Source: Xanthostigma xanthostigma
Taxonomy: Eukaryota > Arthropoda > Insecta > Raphidioptera > Raphidiidae
Assembly (NCBI GenBank): GCA_963575645.1
Contig: OY754464.1
Coordinates: forward strand, 48,598,192 to 48,662,191
DNA: 64,000 nt
Reading direction: 5' to 3'
The stretch's first letter is position 1. Each line of letters opens with the position of its first letter. Position numbers and translations under genes: made by a program. Positions 1 through 28,614 of the stretch are shown in pieces. The notes under the pieces were generated by a model. It saw nothing but the letters and a program-made list of their open reading frames with translations, was not told the origin of the DNA and ran no database searches.

Positions 1-470
1 TTATCAATCGATCAGTTATCCCCGCCAGGCGTCTACATGTGTCACCTCTCACCCAACAAACACCACGGAGTAGAGAGCCGATCTCCTGTCTCTTTCACAC
101 AATAAGCTCAGAAGCAAACGACCTAAAACTGTTTTAGTACCAAATAAGCGGCATCTGTTAGAACTTGCTCAAAGCTATTATAAGTTCACACGCCGGGCCG
201 CAATCGAAATACATTTTGCAGAATTTTATCTATCGCACTCAGGTGAAACCGGGACGGACCGCTATAATATTTTATAAATAGGTAAATTTTGTAAGTTTGG
301 ATATAGATAATAGGAGGCAATCTCCGAAATTACTCATCCGAATTCAAAATTTTTTCACCAATATTTAGAATGGGCCTTCAGAATTCATACAGGATATATA
401 TATTATCGCGTTTAAATAAAAGCGCTTTTAGTGGAGACTAATTTTGCAACGCAAGTCGACGAAAAAACGG
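1..470. other. non-coding, no gene seen
   Basis: AT-rich sequence with no convincing open frame. A short GC-richer phrase near 190-255 (GGTGAAACCGGGACGG) resembles the subterminal part of Helitron-like ends seen elsewhere in the window, but no terminus can be placed. Confidence 0.5.
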
Positions 471-471
471 C

Positions 472-516
472 GACAAGCTACAAATTCGGGCAAAGCCGAA
501 CCGGCCCGCTAGTCTA
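472..516 (+). mobile_element. Helitron-like 3' terminus
   Basis: A small hairpin-forming phrase (CGGGCAAAGCCG) is followed by GGCCCGCTAGT, the usual layout of a Helitron 3' end, namely a hairpin and then CTRR before a T. No 5' end or Rep/helicase frame is visible, so this is a non-autonomous or truncated relic. Confidence 0.45.
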
Positions 517-617
517 TTTTATAAATAAAAGTTGATTTCGCTATTTTGAATGTGTTTTATAAAACCTGAATCAATTTTTATTATTATTTGTCTAATCAGT
601 TACAAGAATTACTTTGG

Positions 618-1196
618 AACGTGAACACCACGTGCAGTAATTGTTCACGTTACCGAAACCCGACTGTAGTAATTTAGATAGATAGATTGTAGACTATACA
701 GTAGGTATACACTGCCAACAAAAGTGATAAATATTTGTTTTCTTCTATGCATATTACTTTAATGCTTTAACTAATATCTTTTCTACACTTGTATATTGTT
801 TTCTTAATTTAGTGAATCTGAAATTCGTTAAGATTTATCGTGAGTTTGTCGTTAACATAAATAATTCACTAACTACAAATTATAGTTACAATGTGATGTC
901 GTTGAGAATTTGCGTACCTACCCATAATATATTATGTAGACGCGTACCTACCTATATAATATTATATTATATATTATATAACGTTGAATCTCCGCACTCG
1001 ACTCTGAGGTTTTGTGTACCCGTGAAAATATATCAGTAGCCCGTATAAGTCCTACCGACACGCAGGCATCGTTGTAGGATGATCACAGAAGTGGATTACA
1101 GACTGAAATAGAATATTTTTTAATCGAATTTTAATTTCATGAGATTCTCGGTAACGTAGACAATGGACATATTACTGAACGTGGTGTTCACGTTTT
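618..1196. mobile_element. MITE-like element with ~50-bp inverted ends
   Basis: The left end reads AACGTGAACACCACGTGCAG and the right end, read on the other strand, AACGTGAACACCACGTTCAG. Both continue to a CGTTACCGA motif. The interior is AT-rich and non-coding. No target duplication could be assigned. CGGTAACGTGAAC also occurs in the pogo-like ends at 4.3 kb, suggesting related families. Confidence 0.4.
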
Positions 1197-1955
1197 CGAG
1201 GAGTTTATGGAACTGAATAGGATGCAAACAATAATAATAATTGATTTACTTTTTAAAAAGGTAGATGACAAAAAACACTTTAAAATGGTTAAGTCAACTT
1301 TTATTCATAAAATAAATTAAAAATTATATAATTTAAAAGAAAAAAAAACAAATAAAAAGGATGGTTTCTAGTGAAATGTTTAATTTTACTATGTAAACAT
1401 AGGTACATACATAAAATACCTGTATAGTCGGCCACGGTATATTTTCATATAAATTTATTAACGTAGTTTCAAGTTTTTAGTCCCTACTTCTAGCGCAAAT
1501 GTCTTCTATCCCGCTCATCCAATAGAAAATAAAATTGTCAACGTTTAACCTCAAAATAACAAATGTTTTTTTCTGATTGGTCTATGAACGTCAGGTAGTG
1601 AAAAGTTGAAAATACATGAGTTCTACTGTATGTAATTTTGAATATAAGCATAGATTCAATTTTTATATTATGTAGTGTACGTTTTAGTGTATGAAAAAAT
1701 CTATACGCTAGTCAAGTATCTATGACGCGCGACCTTTTAGTGCAAGCTCCCATGACAGAAAAAGTTACCCCAAAGAACAATTATAAAGTGAAAATGGCTG
1801 AAAAACATGTCAGAAACATGTTACGCCCGCCAGACTAGTAAAAATTTGTTAATTGTTATTTTTTATGAATTTTTGAATTTAAAAAAAACATGATTTTACT
1901 TTCCAAAACACCTGCTTGAAATTTATACAATTTGTAGTAAATAATGTATCATTTT
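1197..1955. other. non-coding, no gene seen
   Basis: AT-rich sequence with only short chance frames; no RNA gene or repeat boundary recognised. Confidence 0.5.
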
Positions 1956-1964
1956 TGAAAAAAT

Positions 1965-2160
1965 TTGTTTGGCAGACAATTTTTGTAAATAAATTTGTTA
2001 GACTTCATTTGTTATAAATTATTTTTTTTTAAATACATTTCATAACACCTCCTTGAATTTTTTTAAATAAAGTTTAAGATCTCTTCTATCTAATACAACT
2101 TGTCTGGCTGACAATTTTTGTTAATAAATTGGGCAGACTTCATTTGTTATAAATTTTTTT
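1965..2160 (+). repeat. diverged direct repeat, two copies
   Basis: A ~52-bp block containing GACAATTTTTGT and GACTTCATTTGTTATAAATT occurs at about 1,972 and again at about 2,108, so the spacing is about 136 bp. Copies differ at several positions; an older partial copy may lie near 1,830. Confidence 0.5.
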
Positions 2161-2209
2161 TATGAAGTCTGTCATTAGTAAAAAACATTTTTTCGCTGAG
2201 AGACCAATT

Positions 2210-3340
2210 TTTATGCATAAAATAGATGTCAAACCTTCTTTCAGAAAAAAATTAAGGTGATGTTTTGACACGGCCCTTGTAAAAGCTGATTTGTTTATGA
2301 AAGAACGCTGTCACGGCGCATAAAAATTGAATCTGGCATGGTAAAAAACAATATTTTGATAAAAAATGTATTAAAGTATATAAAAGGGATCTACCGTATT
2401 AATTTAGAAAAAAAAAATTTTTAGTTAGCAACGATTAGGTATACCATATTTTTTCATTAAAAAATGTGGTCGCATTTAATGAAAAAATATTATAAGGGAA
2501 TTTATACAGAAAGTTTATGAGTTTGTCAGAAGTAATCTCAGAAACTTCTGAACTGCTTTCAATCACTTTTTCATATTTCGATAGGACACAGACTATAATA
2601 ACATGCCAAACTGGCTTCGCACAGGTGAAAATCTGATAAAATACGCTACACCACAAATTTGATACCTGATTTCTCGAAAAATATTTAGGTCTATAGGATC
2701 AATTTCATCCGTGTGCAAACAGCATTAATTTAAATTCTCTAAATAGCATAAAACAAAATCGCTATCGGCGTCTCTCTATTTGTTTACTTACTTCTTCTTA
2801 CTACAGAATGTATTTTGATTCGGTTTTCACCATCATTTAGGAAGGTTTATATGTATATAACACAATCATATTAAATTCAAAGGTAGTAGAGAAATCTCGA
2901 TGTTTTATAATCAAGTCGAAAAATGACGCTTTTAGGGCACTTACATGGCTTACGCTGACTAAACCATAAGAGATATATCAAAATAAAGTACTACAGAATT
3001 GTAGGTCGAAAAGTCCGCGACAGCATATGTCTACCTTCTAAGAATGACTCTCAGTAACCATTTTTATATTTCAAAAATTTGATCAAAAATAATATGTTAT
3101 TTGTAAAGTCATACGAATATTGTCCGACATGACATTAATCCTTATTCAATTTAATATGTTAATTACTTTAGGCATTTAATTTAGATCAAATTTGACTTTC
3201 AAATCATATCATTTAAATAAATATCTTAGAATATATCACAGATTTAAGAGTTATTTGCACAAAATAATAATTAGGGTTCACTTGCTTGACGAGACTTGCG
3301 AAGCTATTTTGGCCGACATAAAATCCTTATCCATTTAAAT
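2210..3340. other. non-coding, no gene seen
   Basis: AT-rich DNA. The longest frame here, 73 codons on the minus strand near 2.5 kb, has no recognisable domain and no codon bias. Confidence 0.5.
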
Positions 3341-3344
3341 ACGT

Positions 3345-3400
3345 TATCTTTAACAGGCAATTTACAAAACCAGGCGAAGCCGAACGAGCCCGTTAGTGTA
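3345..3400 (+). mobile_element. Helitron-like 3' end relic
   Basis: CTTTAACAGGCAATTTACAA followed by GGCGAAGCCGAACGAGCCCG and TTAGT. The same order of phrases closes the repeat at 10.73-10.76 kb, so both are probably 3' ends of one Helitron-like family. Two more partial phrases follow at 3.42-3.50 kb. Confidence 0.4.
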
Positions 3401-3587
3401 TTAATAAATCATAAATTCGAGCATACGGCCGAAGTGAGTGAGTATATTAATTTATCATAAATTTGAGCAAACGGGCGATGTGCGTTAGTGACGTATAATT
3501 AACTGATTTAACGAACGAACGTAACGGGTGAGATAAAATTAAATCTACACACTGGCAAAGCTAAAGCTATATTATATCTATACTATA

Positions 3588-3632
3588 TTAAATTCTCACT
3601 CGGGCAAAGCCGGGTCGTACCATTAGTTTTAA
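3588..3632 (+). mobile_element. Helitron-like 3' end relic
   Basis: CTCGGGCAAAGCCGGGTCG and then ACCATTAGT, a diverged version of the end at 472-516. Confidence 0.35.
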
Positions 3633-3639
3633 TAAAATA

Positions 3640-4316
3640 TTCAAAAAACTCAAAAATAATCATGTGACCAAAACTTGTGTGACGTCACTGTACATCTCGA
3701 GTATTCACCTCCTCGCAGATGCAATGCTTTCACAGCTCACGTGGATGCTAAATAGCGAATGTCCACGCAAGAACTGTTGACGCATTTCATTGTTTTGCCT
3801 TTTCAATTAGAAACTGGAAACTTTTGTGGGTTGGATAAACGATAGAGGTAATTTGTAGCGTTCGATTCCCTGAATGAAGTGAGATAGAAATCAAATTGTG
3901 ATCGTAACCGCCGAGGTCGGCATATTGAAAAAATGGCTCAAAAACACGGTTTCTTTGAAGTATTTCGCTTCGGGTTCCCCATAGACAAAAAATGTTTGCA
4001 CAAAAATAGAAGATAATTAAATTTTCTACAAAATATGTTTTATACATTTTTTCTCTAAACTGAATAGTTTCTATGCAGCAGCCGTGTATTATTGACAAAA
4101 TTATTATTTTTTTGTGTTGTGCCAATAATTATTCAATCTTGACTTAATTTTATATGCTTATTTGAGACGTATTGATCTAACATTCTAACCATTCTAAAAT
4201 TTTAGTCTTCCAAGTTTAATATTTTCAATTCTAGAACAGTTTACCCCTGGACGCAATGTAAACGTATGAAAATTTTGGAGAAAAACTCATTGAAAACGGA
4301 AAATAATGTAAATAAA
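3640..4316. other. non-coding; unrecognised minus-strand frame
   Basis: A 112-codon open frame runs on the minus strand at 3,787-4,125. It has no recognisable motif, its composition is like its surroundings, and no splice pattern links it to anything, so I do not call it a gene. Confidence 0.4.
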
Positions 4317-4318
4317 TA

Positions 4319-5197
4319 CAGTACAATCTCGGTAACGTGAACACAAAAAATCAGGAGGAGTTCTTAATAGCGGATGTTTATATTATCGAGGTTTGCAAGA
4401 AACATGTACAAAGAACATTAGGGTGTCCGTTATTTCCCAAGTTGTGTTTTGTTTTACGCTCGCCCCCAAATTTTCAGTTTTTGCGCTAAAAAAAGATATC
4501 ACACCAAAAGAAGCGATTACAGTTTTGATATTAAACCATGCCGAAATCATGATGCATTTCCCACTTAAATAACGTGGGATTTTTTCACCTTTTACATTTA
4601 TTTTTTTTTCTCAAAAATAAATGAACGTACATCAATGAGCAATACATATTTTTGTAGGGAATTGAACGCTCTACAAAAAAGGTCTTTATGATTTTTCGAT
4701 AAATTCACTCCGTCGAAAGGTAATCAAGGTTAAATTAAAATTTTTAAGAAAAGACAAAATTAAAATAATCTTTTGACCACGTTTTTGAAATGTGTCACTC
4801 ACCAAATTTTGTCAGAAAATACCTTTCATACTCCTCTATACCCAGGAATTTTTTCGAAGTGGTGGAACAATATGAAAAAAAAAACTTATTTTCTTTCTAT
4901 GGCTTTGCGTTTAAACAAAAAGCCAACGTTTGTTTAAAGAAAAAAAATTAGTTTTTTTTTATATTGTTACACTACTTCGAAAAAATTGAAAAAATTCCTG
5001 AGTATAGACTATAGAGAACTATAAAGGGCGTTTTCTGATAAAAAACAAACAGACTCTAACGAGTTTGCTCTTGTTCATATCATCGAAATTATACGCTGTT
5101 CAATTTCATACTACAGAGTGGTCATTGGAAAAAATATTAAGTTCATATTACTGAGTCGTTCATAAGAGTGCGTATTCATATTATCGCGATTGTACTG
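4319..5197. mobile_element. pogo/Tigger-like MITE
   Basis: An 879-bp element bounded by TA on both sides. The left end is CAGTACAATCTCGGTAACGT; the right end on the minus strand is CAGTACAATCGCGATAATAT. TA duplication and a CAGTA start are typical of the pogo branch of Tc1/mariner. There is no transposase frame, so it is non-autonomous. The middle (about 4,800-5,040) is itself an imperfect palindrome centred near 4,910, with matching phrases such as TTTTTTCGAAGT and ACTTCGAAAAAA. Confidence 0.65.
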
Positions 5198-11140: not shown

Positions 11141-11151
11141 ATTTTTAAAGG

Positions 11152-14100
11152 ATGTCCGTAAAGTTAGCAGAGCAGTTGTAGCAGAACAATTGTTTCTGGC
11201 ACTGATTAATTAAGGCTCATTAAAGGCTATTTAAATGCCCTATTGCGAAATTAAATGCTCCTATACATATTGCAAAAATTCATGTTCTGCTAACTTAACG
11301 AAAAGTTAGCAGAGCACTAATGTTAAAAGTTAATAAAAATGACTATGTCATATATGAGAATTTAAGGCTCATTTAAGGCTATTTAAATGCCCTATTGCGA
11401 AATTCAATGCTCTCATATATATTGCAAAAATTCAAGTTCTGCTAACTTAACGAAAAGTTAGCAGAGCACTAATGTTAAAAGTTAATAAAAATGACTATGT
11501 CATATATGAGAATTTAAGGCTCATTTAAGGCTATTTAAATGCCCTATTGCGAAATTAAATACTCTCATATATATTGCAAAAATTCAAGTTCTGCTACCTT
11601 AACGAACAGTTATCAGAGCACTAATGTTAAAAGTTAATAAAAATGACTATGTCATATATGAGAATTTAAGGCTCATTTAAGGCTATTTAAATGCCCTATT
11701 GCGAAATTCAATGCTCTCATATATATTGCAAAAATTCAAGTTCTGCTAACTTAACGAACAGTTATCAGAGCACTAATGTTAAAAGTTAATAGAAATGAAT
11801 ATATCATATATGAATATTTAAGGCTCATTTAAGGCTATTTTAATGCCCTATTGCGAAATTAAATGCTCCCATACATATTGAAAAAATTCATGTTCTGCTA
11901 ACTTAACGAAAAGTTAGCAGAGCACTAATGTTAAAAGTTAATAAAAATGACTATGTCATATATGAGAATTTAAGGCTCATTTAAGGCTATTTAAATGCCC
12001 TATTGCGAAATTAAATGCTCTCATATATATTGCAAAAATTCAAGTTCTGCTAACTTAACGAACAGTTATCAGAGCACTAATGTTAAAAGTTAATAGAAAT
12101 GAATATATCATATATGAATATTTAAGGCTCATTTAAGGCTATTTAAATGCCCTATTGCGAAATTAAATGCTCCCATACATATTGAAAAAATTCATGTTCT
12201 GCTAACTTAACGAAAAGTTAGCAGAGCACTAATGTTAAAAGTTAATAAAAAATGACTATGTCATATATGAGAATTTAAGGCTCATTGAAGGCTATTTAAA
12301 TGCCCTATTGCGAAATTAAATGCTCTCATATATATTGCAAAAATTCAAGTTCTGCTAACTTAACGAAAAGTTATCAGAGCACTAATGTTAAAAGTTAATA
12401 GAAATGAATATATCATATATGAATATTTAAGGCTCATTTAAGGCTATTTAAATGCCCTATTGCGAAATTAAATGCTCCCATACATATTGCAAAAATTCAT
12501 GTTCTGCTAACTTAACGAAAAGTTATCAGAGCACTAATGTTAAAAGTTAATAGAAATGAATATATCATATATGAATATTTAAGGCTCATTTAAGGCTATT
12601 TAAATGCCCTATTGCGAAATTAAATGCTCCCATACATATTGAAAAAATTCATGTTCTGCTAACTTAACGAAAAGTTAGCAGAGCACTAATGTTAAAAGTT
12701 AATAAAAAATGACTATGTCATATATGAGAATTTAAGGCTCATTTAAGGCTATTTAAATGCCCTATTGCGAAATTAAATGCTCTCATATATATTGCAAAAA
12801 TTCAAGTTCTGCTAACTTAACGAAAAGTTATCAGAGCACTAATGTTAAAAGTTAATAGAAATGAATATATCATATATGAATATTTAAGGCTCATTTAAGG
12901 CTATTTAAATGCCCTATTGCGAAATTAAATGCTTCCATACATATTGCAAAAATTCATGTTCTGCTAACTTAACCAAAAGTTATCAGAGCACTAATGTTAA
13001 AAGTTAATAGAAATGAATATATCATATATGAATATTTAAGGCTCATTTAAGGCTATTTAAATGCCCTATTGCGAAATTAAATGCTCCCATACATATTGAA
13101 AAAATTCATGTTCTGCTAACTTAACGAAAAGTTAGCAGAGCACTAATGTTAAAAGTTAATAGAAATGAATATATCATATATGAATATTTAAGGCTCATTT
13201 AAGGCTATTTAAATGCCCTATTGCGAAATTAAATGCTCCCATACATATTGCAAAAATTCATGTTCTGCTAACTTAACGAAAAGTTATCAGAGCACTAATG
13301 TTAAAAGTTAATAGAAATGAATATATCATATATGAATATTTAAGGCTCATTTAAGGCTATTTAAATGCCCTATTGCGAAATTAAATGCTCCCATACATAT
13401 TGAAAAAATTCATGTTCTGCTAACTTAACGAAAAGTTAGCAGAGCACTAATGTTAAAAGTTAATAAAAAATGACTATGTCATATATGAGAATTTAAGGCT
13501 CATTTAAGGCTATTTAAATGCCCTATTGCGAAATTAAATGCTCTCATATATATTGCAAAAATTCAAGTTCTGCTAACTTAACGAAAAGTTATCAGAGCAC
13601 TAATGTTAAAAGTTAATAGAAATGAATATATCATATATGAATATTTAAGGTTCATTTAAGGCTATTTAAATGCCCTATTGCGAAATTAAATGCTCCCATA
13701 CATATTGCAAAAATTCATGTTCTGCTAACTTAACGAAAAGTTATCAGAGCACTAATGTTAAAAGTTAATAGAAATGAATATATCATATATGAATATTTAA
13801 GGCTCATTTAAGGCTATTTAAATGCCCTATTGCGAAATTAAATGCTCCCATACATATTGAAAAAATTCATGTTCTGCTAACTTAACGAAAAGTTAGCAGA
13901 GCACTAATGTTAAAAGTTAATATAAATGAATATATCATATATGAATATTTAAGGCTCATTTAAGGCTATTTAAATGCCCTATTGCGAAATTAAATGCTCC
14001 CATACATATTGCAAAAATTCAAGTTCTGCTAACTTAACGAAAAGTTAGCAGAGCACTAATGTTAAAAGTTAATAAACATAAATATATCATATATGAGAAT

Positions 14101-14157
14101 TTAAGGCTCGTTACAGGCTATTTAAATGCCCTATTGCGAAATTAAATGCTCCCATAT
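11152..14157 (+). repeat. left satellite arm, ~20 x 152 bp
   Basis: Spacing of the landmark AACGAAAAGTTAGCAGAGCA is 152 bp through most of the array. Each unit carries a small palindrome (GCTAACTTAACGAAAAGTTAGC) and the block TTTAAATGCCCTATTGCGAA. Two main variants are recognised by AAAATGACTATGTCATATATG (A) and GAAATGAATATATCATATATG (B). Confidence 0.85.
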
Positions 14158-14730
14158 TAGGCCAAGCTATAGAGATTTAAAAAAGCGTTCTTGTGACATA
14201 AAGACTAGTAGCAAACCGATTGTGCGATGTTATAAAAGATAATAAGCAGATGAGTAGGTATGTGTTTTTCACTCGAGTTTCCGGTCCATTTGTTAGTTAT
14301 CAAGAGTTTATTGCAAAAAAAACGCGATTTTTGTCTTTTTTGGCTTGTAACTTTGAAACTAATGGAGCAATCGGAATGCCCCAATGAAATGGTTTGTAGA
14401 GAATTGAAATATCTACAGAATGAGAGGTCGAATGTCTTAATCGGATAATTAGGTCCTGAAAAATTTAGGAAAAACCAGAAAATTAGGCGTTTTTTCTAAA
14501 ATTTATAGCTCCGTCATTTTTTGAGCTGGAGCGCTAAAATTTTGAGAGAAAGTAGGGATTATAATGTTCTTTATATGTGCCAAAGGTGGGTGCTGTCGGA
14601 TTATTAGTTTTCGCGAAATCGCGATTGAAAGTTTGCAGTGCGCTTTTTTCTGGCAGGCCTGTATGCGTTACCGTAAGTCCGATAATAATTTCAAAGAAAG
14701 TTTTGAAAAATTGACATCGTGCACTACAAA

Positions 14731-15003
14731 ACGTATATTTCAGTTTTTCGATCAGATGCCTGGAAGCACGCTAAAAACACTCGTAAAGTTCGTGAAAAAC
14801 GGCCGAGCGCGCCCTCTCAGGCGAGTGGTGGGAGAATATAAATAACGTGCGCGCCGCGCGCGCTATTACTATATATACGCTTCTCCGCCGCTGCTCGTTC
14901 CACCACCACTCGACTGCGAGCACGTGCTCGGCCGTTTTTCGTGAACTTTACGAGTGTTTTTAGCATGCTTCCAGGCATCTGATCGAAAAACTGAAATCTA
15001 CGT
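14731..15003. repeat. GC-rich inverted module with convergent TATA boxes
   Basis: Arms of about 78 bp (matching phrases TTTCAGTTTTTCGATCAGAT and CTTTACGAGTGTTTTTAGC) flank a ~115-bp centre. The centre has TATAAATA on the plus strand at 14,837, a TATATATA at 14,870-14,877 followed on the minus strand by G, and a CG-alternating run at about 14,846-14,864. The inverted GAGTGGTGG phrases on each side keep the symmetry. It looks like two core promoters pointing at each other, but transcription cannot be judged from sequence. Confidence 0.5.
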
Positions 15004-15398
15004 TCCCGCGTATGGGAAAAATTAAAAAACACATATTATTATGTATGTACATACATCCATACATACATACTACATATGTACATACATATTTTTTATTTAC
15101 ATAATAGGGTAGAATTTTATTGTTTTCTCATATACATTAATAGTCAGAGTGCCCGTCGACAAAAATTTTACTGACACATACTCTCCCCAAACTTTGTATA
15201 TGGCTTGATTAGGCCTAGTCTGACACCTATTTCCTCTATGACTTTTCTTGATTTTGGGGCGTTTTCCCTCTAAATTTTCCGAAAGATGTCGTTTTGACGA
15301 CATGTAAAAATTTATAGATACTGTTTGTTTTTTTAATTGGATAGCTTAAAAACTTCAACCAAAATGCTAAAATAATGTTCTCTGACAAATAACATGAA

Positions 15399-15463
15399 CC
15401 ATTTAAAATGTCTGACACCTCAAATATGTTCGACATATTCGAGGTGTCAGACATTTTTAATGG
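15399..15463. repeat. short foldback hairpin
   Basis: CCATTTAAAATGTCTGACAC and its inverted partner GTGTCAGACATTTTTAATGG close around a 3-base centre, with arms of about 31 bp and few mismatches. Confidence 0.7.
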
Positions 15464-16000
15464 TGCTGGCGCTGGCTTGGTAAATGTAACAAAAAAGTAT
15501 AGGATTGTGTAGGTCACGTCATAAACGTTGTCGGTCAGGTCTGCGTCATAAAAAATATCATGGCTTACTGCATAAGCATAACTTACTATGAATGAGATAA
15601 AAAAAAAAACAAGTCAAATAATCCTTAAAAAATACTGTGAGAAAATTTAGGTTGTAAATTTTTACTTTGCAAATGTGTATACTAATTGTTTTTCAAAGGC
15701 ATCAATAGTGAAAGTACGACCAAACAGACTGACTAATAAAAATTCACTGCTAATAAGGCGGCTGATAATAAATTCAAATTATTGTAACTGTACAACAAAT
15801 ATTTTTATTGTTAACTCATTTTCAACAATCGGATTTCATTAATCAGTCTGTATTTGTCCGCCCTTAGTTACGCACGTGAAAAACCTTATTTCTTTGATTT
15901 CTTTAATATAAATCAGGATTAGTTGAGTAAAGTCTCTCCTTCAATTTATCCTTTCGATATGATATACCTACTAGTTATTGATATCAACTCTTAATATTGG

Positions 16001-17081
16001 TGCTCTGCTATCTTTTCGTTTAAATAGCAAAACACGAATTTTTGCAATATGTATGGGAGCATTTAATTTCGCAATAGGGCATTTAAATAGCCTTAAATGA
16101 GCCTTAAATTTTCATATATAACATAGTCATTTATATTAACTTGTAACATTAGTGCTCTGCTAACTTTTCGTTAAGTTAGCAGAACTTGAATTTTTGCAAT
16201 ATGTACCTACTGGAGCATTTAATTTCGCACTAAGGCATTTAAATAGCCTTTAATGAGCCTTAAATTCTCATATATGATTTAGTTATTTTTATTAACTTTT
16301 AACATTAGTGCTCTGTTAACTTTTCATTTAGTTAGCAAAACCCGAATTTTTGCAATAAGTATGGGAGCATTTAATTTCGCAATAGGGCATTTAAATAGCC
16401 TTAAATGAGCCTTAAATATTCATATATGATATATTCATTTCTATTAACTTTTAACATTAGTGCTCTGCTAACTTTTCGTTAAGTTAGCAGAACTTGAATT
16501 TTTGCAATATATATGGGAGCATTTAATTTCGCAATAGGGCATTTAAATAGCCTTAAATGAGCCTTAAATTCTCATATATGACATAGTCATTTTTATTAAC
16601 TTTTAACATTAGTGCTCTGCTAACTTTTCGTTAAGTTAGCAGAACTTGAATTTTTGCAATATATATGAGAGCATTTAATTTCGCAATAGGGCATTTAAAT
16701 AGCCTTAAATGAGCCTTAAATTCTCATATATGACATAGTCATTTTTATTAACTTTTAACATTAGTGCTCTGCTAACTTTTCGTTAAGTTAGCAGAACTTG
16801 AATTTTTGCAATATATATGAGAGCATTTAATTTCGCAATAGGGCATTTAAATAGCCTTAAATGAGCCTTAAATTTTCATATATGACATAGTCATTTATAT
16901 TAACTTTTAACATTAGTGCTCTGCTAACTTTTCGTTAAGTTAGCAGAACATGAATTTTTGCAGTATGTATGGGAGCATTTAATTTCACAATAGGGCATTT
17001 AAATAGCCTTAAATGAGCCTTAATTAGTCAGTGCTAGAAACAGTTGTTCTGCTACAACTGCTCTGCTAACTTTACGGACAT
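16001..17081 (-). repeat. right satellite arm, ~7 x 152 bp
   Basis: The same 152-bp unit as the left arm, inverted; landmark on the plus strand GTGCTCTGCTAACTTTTCG. The units next to the core are the most diverged. The arm ends in the terminal sequence that mirrors 11,152 onwards. Confidence 0.85.
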
Positions 17082-17247
17082 TTTTAAAGGTAATAGTTAT
17101 CGGAGCTACTTCCGTATCCGCCTCATCATTTTATGTGGATCTATTGTAGAAAGATTTTAGTTTATAGACTCTTGGAAACTGATGTCATTAGCGTATGTAA
17201 TTTGTTAATTACGTTAAGTAAAATACCTTTTTCGTGTGTGTGCATCT

Positions 17248-27373: not shown

Positions 27374-28614
27374 TAGTGTATTTGCCATATATTCAAAGCA
27401 ATGGCACGTCAGTCCGGTGTCGGAGAGGCAACCGGATGGCGAGTGGTAATCTGGGCCTATGAGTGGTACAGAACCCCCTGGTAGCGGCCAAAGTGACCCC
27501 AAATGGACGGGGGCGGCGATATGGGGGTGGGGCAAAATCGAAAAATGTTTGAAAAGGCAACCGGATAAAAATGCGGTTGCATTGAAGGAAATACCCTAAT
27601 TATATAATCAATTTTTTTTGCCATCCGATCCACGCGGGCCGTTTTTGCACTAGCGAATAAAAAAAAAATTAAAAAAAAACTGAAAAGGCAACCGCTTCAA
27701 AATTAGTGAGCATACTTATTGACACCACCAAACGTTGGAAAAAAATTGCCATCCGATCCTGATGGGCAGTTTCGGAGAAACAACCCCTCAAAGTCGCCGA
27801 AAAACCCTTTTTTTCGATTTTTTCAACAATAAGTAAAAAAAACACACTAAAAATTGTTCAAATCGGATGGCATTCGAAATTTATACTGTCCTAAGTACAA
27901 ATAATAGTGTGTATCAATGCCATCCGATTTCGATTAAATTTACCCCTATTTAGCCACCCCCAAAACTCATGAAAATAACAATTTTATGCAGCGTATGGCA
28001 TTATTTTTCTTGTTATTGAGTTTTGGGGGTTGGCTAAATAGGGGTAAATTTAATCAAAATCGGATGGCATTGATACACACTATTATTTGTACTTAGGACA
28101 GTATAAATTTCGAATGCCATCCGATTTGAACAATTTTTAGTGTGTTTTTTTTACTTAATGTTGAAAAAATCGAAAAAAAGGGTTTTTCGGCAACTTTGAG
28201 GGGTTGTTTCTCCGAAACTGCCCATCAGGATCGGATGGCAATTTTTTTCCAACGTTTGGTGGTGTCAATAAGTATGCTCACTAATTTTGAAGCGGTTGCC
28301 TTTTCAGTTTTTTTTTAATTTTTTTTTTATTCGCTAGTGCAAAAACGGCCCGCGTGGATCGGATGGCAAAAAAAATTGATTATATAATTAGGGTATTTCC
28401 TTCAATGCAACCGCATTTTTATCCGGTTGCCTTTTCAAACATTTTTCGATTTTGCCCCACCCCCATATCGCCGCCCCCGTCCATTTGGGGTCACTTTGGC
28501 CGCTACCAGGGGGTTCTGTACCACTCATAGGCCCAGATTACCACTCGCCATCCGGTTGCCTCTCCGACACCGGACTGACGTGCCATTGCTTTGAATAATA
28601 AGGCACTTACACTA
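27374..28614. mobile_element. 1.24-kb near-perfect palindrome with motif array
   Basis: Arms of about 600 bp run from 27,374 to about 27,980 and from about 28,010 to 28,614, with a loop of about 30 bp. In the parts I compared, arms differ at only a few sites, two of them C/T changes at CG. Each arm carries about seven copies, in both orientations, of related motifs: ATCGGATGGCA / TGCCATCCGAT and AAGGCAACCGGAT. The outer arms are G/C-rich (GGGGGCGGCGATATGGGGGT), the inner arms AT-rich. No transposase and no clear target duplication. It could be a long-TIR transposon or a hairpin-RNA locus. The 64-77 codon frames in it are mirror images of each other. Confidence 0.8.

Follow-up and report, generated by a model that had tools for sequence, protein, structure and literature searches.

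Positions 27390-28597 of the window (the whole stretch of 64,000 nucleotides that was analyzed) are occupied by a palindromic element of 1208 bp, which is very probably a non-autonomous DNA transposon of the foldback type with long terminal inverted repeats (TIRs), moved in trans by the transposase of an as yet unfound partner. It is a mobile unit whose ends are fixed and whose target-site duplications, mostly NTA or TAN, are exactly 3 bp long; the genome holds roughly 500 copies, movement has been very recent, and each arm contains an array of one degenerate motif. The two arms, complementary at 571 of 576 positions, surround a 56-nt centre, and the copy in the window is laid out as follows.

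27387..27389, no strand: left 3-bp target-site duplication, ATA
27390..28597, no strand: whole element, 1208 bp, TATTCAAAGCAATGG...CCATTGCTTTGAATA; homology among independent copies begins and ends here
27390..27965, plus strand: left arm, 576 nt
27427..27440, plus strand: outermost 14-bp dyad GGCAACCGGATGGC, a GGCAACCG overlapping an inverted GCCATCCG, head to head; mirrored at 28547-28560
27534..27772, plus strand: two imperfect modules spaced by ~130 bp, 27534-27644 and 27665-27772, each with one GGCAACCG and one GCCATCCG
27556..27563, plus strand: motif GGCAACCG of module 1; mirrored at 28424-28431
27620..27627, plus strand: motif GCCATCCG of module 1; mirrored at 28360-28367
27687..27694, plus strand: motif GGCAACCG of module 2; mirrored at 28293-28300
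27748..27755, plus strand: motif GCCATCCG of module 2; mirrored at 28232-28239
27864..27871, minus strand: motif GCCATCCG; mirrored at 28116-28123
27919..27926, plus strand: motif GCCATCCG; mirrored at 28061-28068
27966..28021, no strand: centre, 56 nt, partly self-complementary, with an asymmetric loop
28022..28597, minus strand: right arm, 576 nt, complementary to the left arm at 571 of 576 positions
28598..28600, no strand: right 3-bp target-site duplication, ATA

The initial annotation had described a near-perfect palindrome with few differences between its arms and had placed it at 27374-28614. The palindrome is real, with five arm-versus-arm mismatches in 576 nt (arm positions 406, 440, 542, 568, and 573), but those limits overshoot the element by ~16-17 bp at either end. 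The surplus is host target DNA that by chance forms a short inverted repeat round the insertion point, since an empty paralogue of the site in a stretch fetched from elsewhere in the genome (L011, 89% identity over 82 nt) carries similar bases although the element is missing there. A shift in base composition from a G/C-rich outside to an AT-rich inside had also been reported, and the G+C content indeed falls from 0.60 in the outer 145 bp to 0.35 further in and 0.29 in the centre, with flanks at 0.31-0.32. As the centre is partly self-complementary, the truly unpaired loop is short. The two arms fill 1152 of the 1208 bp and no stop-to-stop open frame of 150 aa was listed anywhere in the 64-kb window, so no transposase gene lies inside the element.

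When the arm and the motifs were searched for across the genome assembly (623 Mb in 28 contigs), hundreds of copies were recovered. The 17-nt terminus, with at most one mismatch, was found at 1073 places (529 + 544), compared to five (3 + 2) for the reversed control. With two termini per copy, this corresponds to a family of roughly 500 copies, truncated copies being ignored in the estimate. The outermost dyad GGCAACCGGATGGC gave 492 + 510 exact matches against none for its reversed control, and the arm query returned 82 scored matches from the 40 scored of 799 first-look candidates. Among the first 100 termini listed, all of them exact and on contig C1, which they span up to 48.6 Mb, 37 inward-facing pairs were present, 33 of which were spaced by 1150-1230 bp; the other four were 686, 821, 866, and 4592 bp apart, the last being a copy interrupted by a LINE. 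The 26 unpaired termini of this list include that of the window copy, whose partner lies beyond the list. Two dyads 3.1 kb apart were also seen at C1:43657201-43660335. Exact pattern matches in the viral and prokaryote collections numbered 0, 0, and 1, and the sole match, in a Gemmatimonadota contig, was judged to be due to chance.

To describe the insertions, 39 stretches were fetched; the one-armed L023 was dropped, L038 held two copies, and the window copy was added, giving 40 elements, of which 38 copies with distinct flanks remained once the duplicate flanks in L036 and L039 had been removed. Each of the 38 is bounded by a perfect direct repeat of 3 bp, and the match is longer in only two of them, at 4 and 7 bp within A/T-rich flanks. 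Among the pairs of the terminus list that had not been fetched, the first ten likewise showed 3-bp repeats in 10 of 10 cases: TTA four times, ATA three times, then TAT, GTA, and CTA. All of these list-order duplications are NTA or TAN, trinucleotides that make up 20% of those in the window (p about 1e-7). NTA or TAN also accounted for 31 of the 38 fetched copies, a set whose base preference is biased towards ATA because the arm query carried the window's own ATA flank; the rest were TTT (3), ATT (2), and AAA (2). TTA/TAA was found in 4/10 list-order and 12/38 fetched copies, and ATA/TAT in 4/10 and 16/38, respectively. An orientation bias of the duplication among the 38 copies (ATA 16, TAT 0) was set aside as a likely selection effect of the same ATA flank in the query; the list-order ten contain both ATA and TAT.

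For 9 of the 40 elements, the window copy included, the joined flanks could be aligned across the junction to an uninterrupted paralogue. Besides the L011 site of the window copy described above, clean empty sites were obtained for L015 against window positions 15136-15402 (95.9% over 267 nt) and for L034 against L020 (98.3% over 297). Weaker ones came from L020/L074 (a gapped alignment at 69%), L021/L040 (a gap at the junction itself), and L022 (low-complexity, with a gap nearby). The fixed length of the 3-bp duplication, together with the empty sites and the fixed ends, identifies the element as a TIR DNA transposon.

The same insertions bear on the concern that the palindrome might be false, produced in assembly by a hairpin or chimeric read. 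One copy, L074, runs into exactly 200 N (2422-2621), possibly a gap that the palindrome produced in scaffolding, though N may also be masking, and an assembly gap there would suit such an artefact. Tens of copies with the same ends and 3-bp duplications lie at unrelated places, however, some of them with empty paralogues, and these dozens of independent insertions (38 of 38 and 10 of 10 with 3-bp duplications) reduce the chance of an artefact to practically nil.

L009, L010, and L011 (on C1 and C8) do not differ from the window copy in either 580-nt arm, although the flanks of the four are unrelated; their transposition is therefore recent. Over the 38 copies, which were drawn from the best-scoring candidates and hence lean to young copies, the mean distance was 0.016 between left arms, 0.019 between right arms, and 0.020 between the left and right arms of one copy. 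The initial annotation had called the element recent because its arms are hardly diverged, which is right for the window copy; the identity of arm to arm reflects no special homogenisation, as left arms are closer to one another (0.016) than to their own partners (0.020). Gene conversion as the main force homogenising the arms was thus rejected: the own partner was closest or joint-closest for only 2 of 76 arms, and private changes were found 48 times on one arm compared to 4 times on both, which argues against conversion.

A different role for the palindrome, as a hairpin-RNA locus (an endo-siRNA or piRNA trigger) kept because its transcript folds into dsRNA that silences related sequence, would agree with the folding potential of the element. 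Arms complementary at 571 of 576 positions would form a long hairpin if transcribed, and a folding energy of -69 kcal/mol was obtained for the central 128 nt by themselves. We consider this role very unlikely, because ~500 dispersed copies, target-site duplications, and a recent spread need no such function, and transposition alone explains the palindrome structure.

The evidence thus agrees with the foldback transposon family that the initial annotation had put forward, given the many copies, the exact 3-bp duplications, the empty sites, and the identical copies. Its description as uncharacterised holds for the literature that was searched. Four sequence words from the arm were not found in the literature, and among the papers listed no title or abstract start describes the family. 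It appears to be a further, new family within a kind of element already known, without superfamily assignment, Repbase and Dfam being outside the comparison.

The motif array reported by the initial annotation, with two related motifs, was also recovered. When up to one mismatch is allowed, the motif GCCATCCGAT is present at 11 places in the window compared to 1.23 expected, and 10 of the 11 occurrences are inside the element; GGCAACCG occurs six times compared to 0.51 expected, all six inside. The two motifs GGCAACCG and GCCATCCG are versions of a single degenerate 8-mer, GSCAWCCG, with 8 exact sites per arm and 16 in the element against 1 in the remaining ~62.8 kb of the window. In 2000 dinucleotide shuffles of the left arm, the mean number of sites was 0.085 and the maximum 2, and two further near sites with one mismatch are present at arm positions 185 and 480. 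The two modules of the arm align to each other with a local score of 30.5, compared to 25.0 for the best of 1000 shuffles. Over 76 arms, 6 of 62 motif columns were variable compared to 91 of the 508 other columns (one-sided Fisher test, p = 0.07 for all columns and 0.049 for G/C columns only), which is suggestive, not proof, of a stronger conservation of the motif columns than of the rest of the arm.

From these features, we infer a mechanism in which the element, encoding nothing itself, would rely on a DDE-type transposase supplied in trans by the unfound autonomous partner. This enzyme would cut at TATTCAAAG/CTTTGAATA and insert both ends into the target with a stagger of 3 bp. The ends would be recognised through several putative GSCAWCCG sites bound in each arm, with several transposase molecules docking on the array, and their repetition may be what gives such short sites their specificity. 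As to the origin of the palindrome, we can only speculate that one end of a parent element was duplicated head to head, perhaps during aborted gap repair.

Several known elements resemble this one in part. Foldback (FB) of Drosophila and Tetris of D. virilis have foldback arms with internal repeats and are mostly non-coding, and FB target duplications are 9 bp; unlike theirs, the arms here are mostly unique sequence plus two modules and not long tandem arrays. P/Galileo elements duplicate 7-8 bp of target, and Galileo itself 7 bp. The 3-bp duplication of our element does not fit this superfamily, and no THAP transposase was linked to the element. The likeness to Galileo (P superfamily, Drosophila) is in the arms: its long inverted repeats are described as foldback-like, repetitive inside, and equipped with multiple binding sites for the transposase, the sites here being putative. 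The Galileo THAP domain is reported to bind several sites in the long repetitive arms, and the repetition of short sites is proposed to give binding specificity (PMC3688188). By analogy, the transposase that moves our element probably docks on the motif array.

A narrower form of the transposon explanation would place the family in one of the named superfamilies with 3-bp duplications, namely PIF/Harbinger, Chapaev3, Tc4, Zator, AcademX, or CACTA, its ends or target preference having drifted. We hold this assignment to be tentative, at a little less than an even chance. The length of the duplication fits Harbinger, Chapaev3, Tc4, Zator, AcademX, and CACTA alike, and candidate transposases are abundant in the genome, with 151 matches to PF13359 (Harbinger-type) and 150 to PF03184 (pogo/Tc4-type); one PF13359 element, L097, even has 531-nt inverted repeats.

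The target duplication of Harbinger is TWA and that of CACTA is 3 bp long. In the CACTA element En/Spm, a 3-bp duplication is combined with mixed-orientation subterminal motifs that are bound by an element-encoded protein, and the original Tc4 is gene-less and almost perfectly palindromic. Our element shares with En/Spm the 3-bp duplication and the repeated motifs in mixed orientation; unlike En/Spm, it lacks the CACTA ends, and only two PF02992 matches were found in the genome search. With Tc4, a member of the Tc1/mariner group described from nematodes, arthropods, and tardigrades, it shares the fold-back structure and the 3-bp duplication, but Tc4 is reported to insert at C|TNA|G (PMC11071193), whereas the insertions here are at NTA/TAN without the flanking C and G. 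Chapaev3 is described as duplicating TWA and Chapaev as ending in CAC...GTG (PMC4079192), Zator as duplicating 3 bp (PMC10045372), and AcademX, whose Academ transposase includes a nuclease, as duplicating 3-4 bp; the 3-bp duplication found here is that of Zator and is within the range of AcademX. The Repbase rule for non-autonomous elements is described as a comparison of their first 11 bases and of the length of the duplication.

Target preference speaks against the canonical TWA of Harbinger and Chapaev3, which was found in only 4/10 list-order and 12/38 fetched copies, and against the C|TNA|G of Tc4, whose TNA was found in the same 4/10 and 12/38. Similarly, the ends speak against Chapaev and CACTA, as the TATTC...GAATA here differs from the CAC...GTG of Chapaev. 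Of the 151 PF13359 loci, 20 were fetched; none carried the exact terminal 10-mer or the motif array, and one carried a single GCCATCCG.

Candidate transposase genes were also compared with the positions of the family. L097 was rejected as the partner, its ends, AAAGGGTATAG, being unrelated. It is a 3.8-kb element (1047-4855) with 98% identical inverted repeats of 531 nt and an intact DDE_Tnp_4 frame of 723 aa, and no 3-bp duplication was evident at its ends; frames of 723 aa were present at seven places among the PF13359 matches listed, L097 included. For PF03184, 11 of the 150 matches are on C1 and five in the stretch with listed termini, none of the five being within 10 kb of a terminus as judged by eye. 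The PF02992 profile had two matches in the genome, one of them above the cut-off at 37 bits, and no arms were found in two 701-nt slices beside the match on C4. The PF07592 (Zator-like, for an ISAzo13-like transposase) and PF04236 (for a Tc4-type DDD transposase) profiles gave no match, and their controls were silent too. A large, uncounted share of the listed PF13359 and PF03184 matches, with many long frames, falls in a stretch of ~8 Mb on contig C10 (about 8-16 Mb).

The unpaired termini were then used to look for an autonomous copy. Excluding that of the window, 20 of the 25 on C1 were sampled by 301-nt slices inside the element, and 12 of the 20 slices matched the family. Longer stretches were read for six of the eight non-matching termini (L069-L074) and for two of the 12 matching ones (L075 and L076). 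In these eight stretches, inspection by eye of the open frames of 90 aa or more showed no family transposase. The remaining two non-matching termini, judged by eye from the slice only, resembled a gene of the mariner type and a fragment of a reverse transcriptase.

Five of the eight stretches contain one-armed copies ending within ~35 bp of the palindrome centre, a proportion favoured by the placement of the slices near that centre. The breakpoints are at about 569 in L069, which also has an internal deletion, 693 in L072, 671 in L073, 2219 in L075, where long retrotransposon-like frames adjoin the arm (by eye), and 713 in L076. These copies look as if cleavage of the hairpin, or slippage at it, had removed the second arm. 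L071 breaks off at arm position 405.

Two further candidates for an autonomous element were rejected. The 4.6-kb copy L048 is a palindrome into whose left arm a LINE has inserted (about 285-3660), and this non-LTR retrotransposon carries endonuclease and reverse transcriptase domains. L070 keeps only 56 terminal bp, and its interior belongs to another inverted-repeat family, which interrupts the arm at 2378-2721. This second family gave 79 matches from the 40 scored of 364 candidates, many of them forming inverted pairs a few hundred bp apart.

A more far-reaching form of the explanation, which we regard as unlikely, is that the family is mobilised by an undescribed transposase lineage characterized by TATTC...GAATA ends, an NTA-preferring 3-bp stagger, and multimeric binding to eight GSCAWCCG sites per end, and that its autonomous copy is rare or lost while the gene-less palindrome stands at ~500 copies. 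The family would be more important if the partner transposase belonged to such a new lineage, and would otherwise be an ordinary addition to the repeat library. With its defined end, target preference, and motif array, this clean, very young palindromic family of high copy number is useful for testing why foldback transposons have long repeat arms. It could serve equally to test the survival and decay of palindromes of more than 1 kb, as some copies stop near the centre without a second arm.

The window also holds a second, larger inverted structure at 11145-17088, in which 152-bp tandem units in opposite orientation (19.4 copies at 11203-14156 and 6.8 copies at 15982-17023) surround a core of ~1.8 kb. 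Its outer ends are similar, TTTTTAAAGGATGTCCGTAAAG / CTTTACGGACATTTTTAAAG, and the structure resembles a Foldback-type element whose arms are made of satellite repeats.
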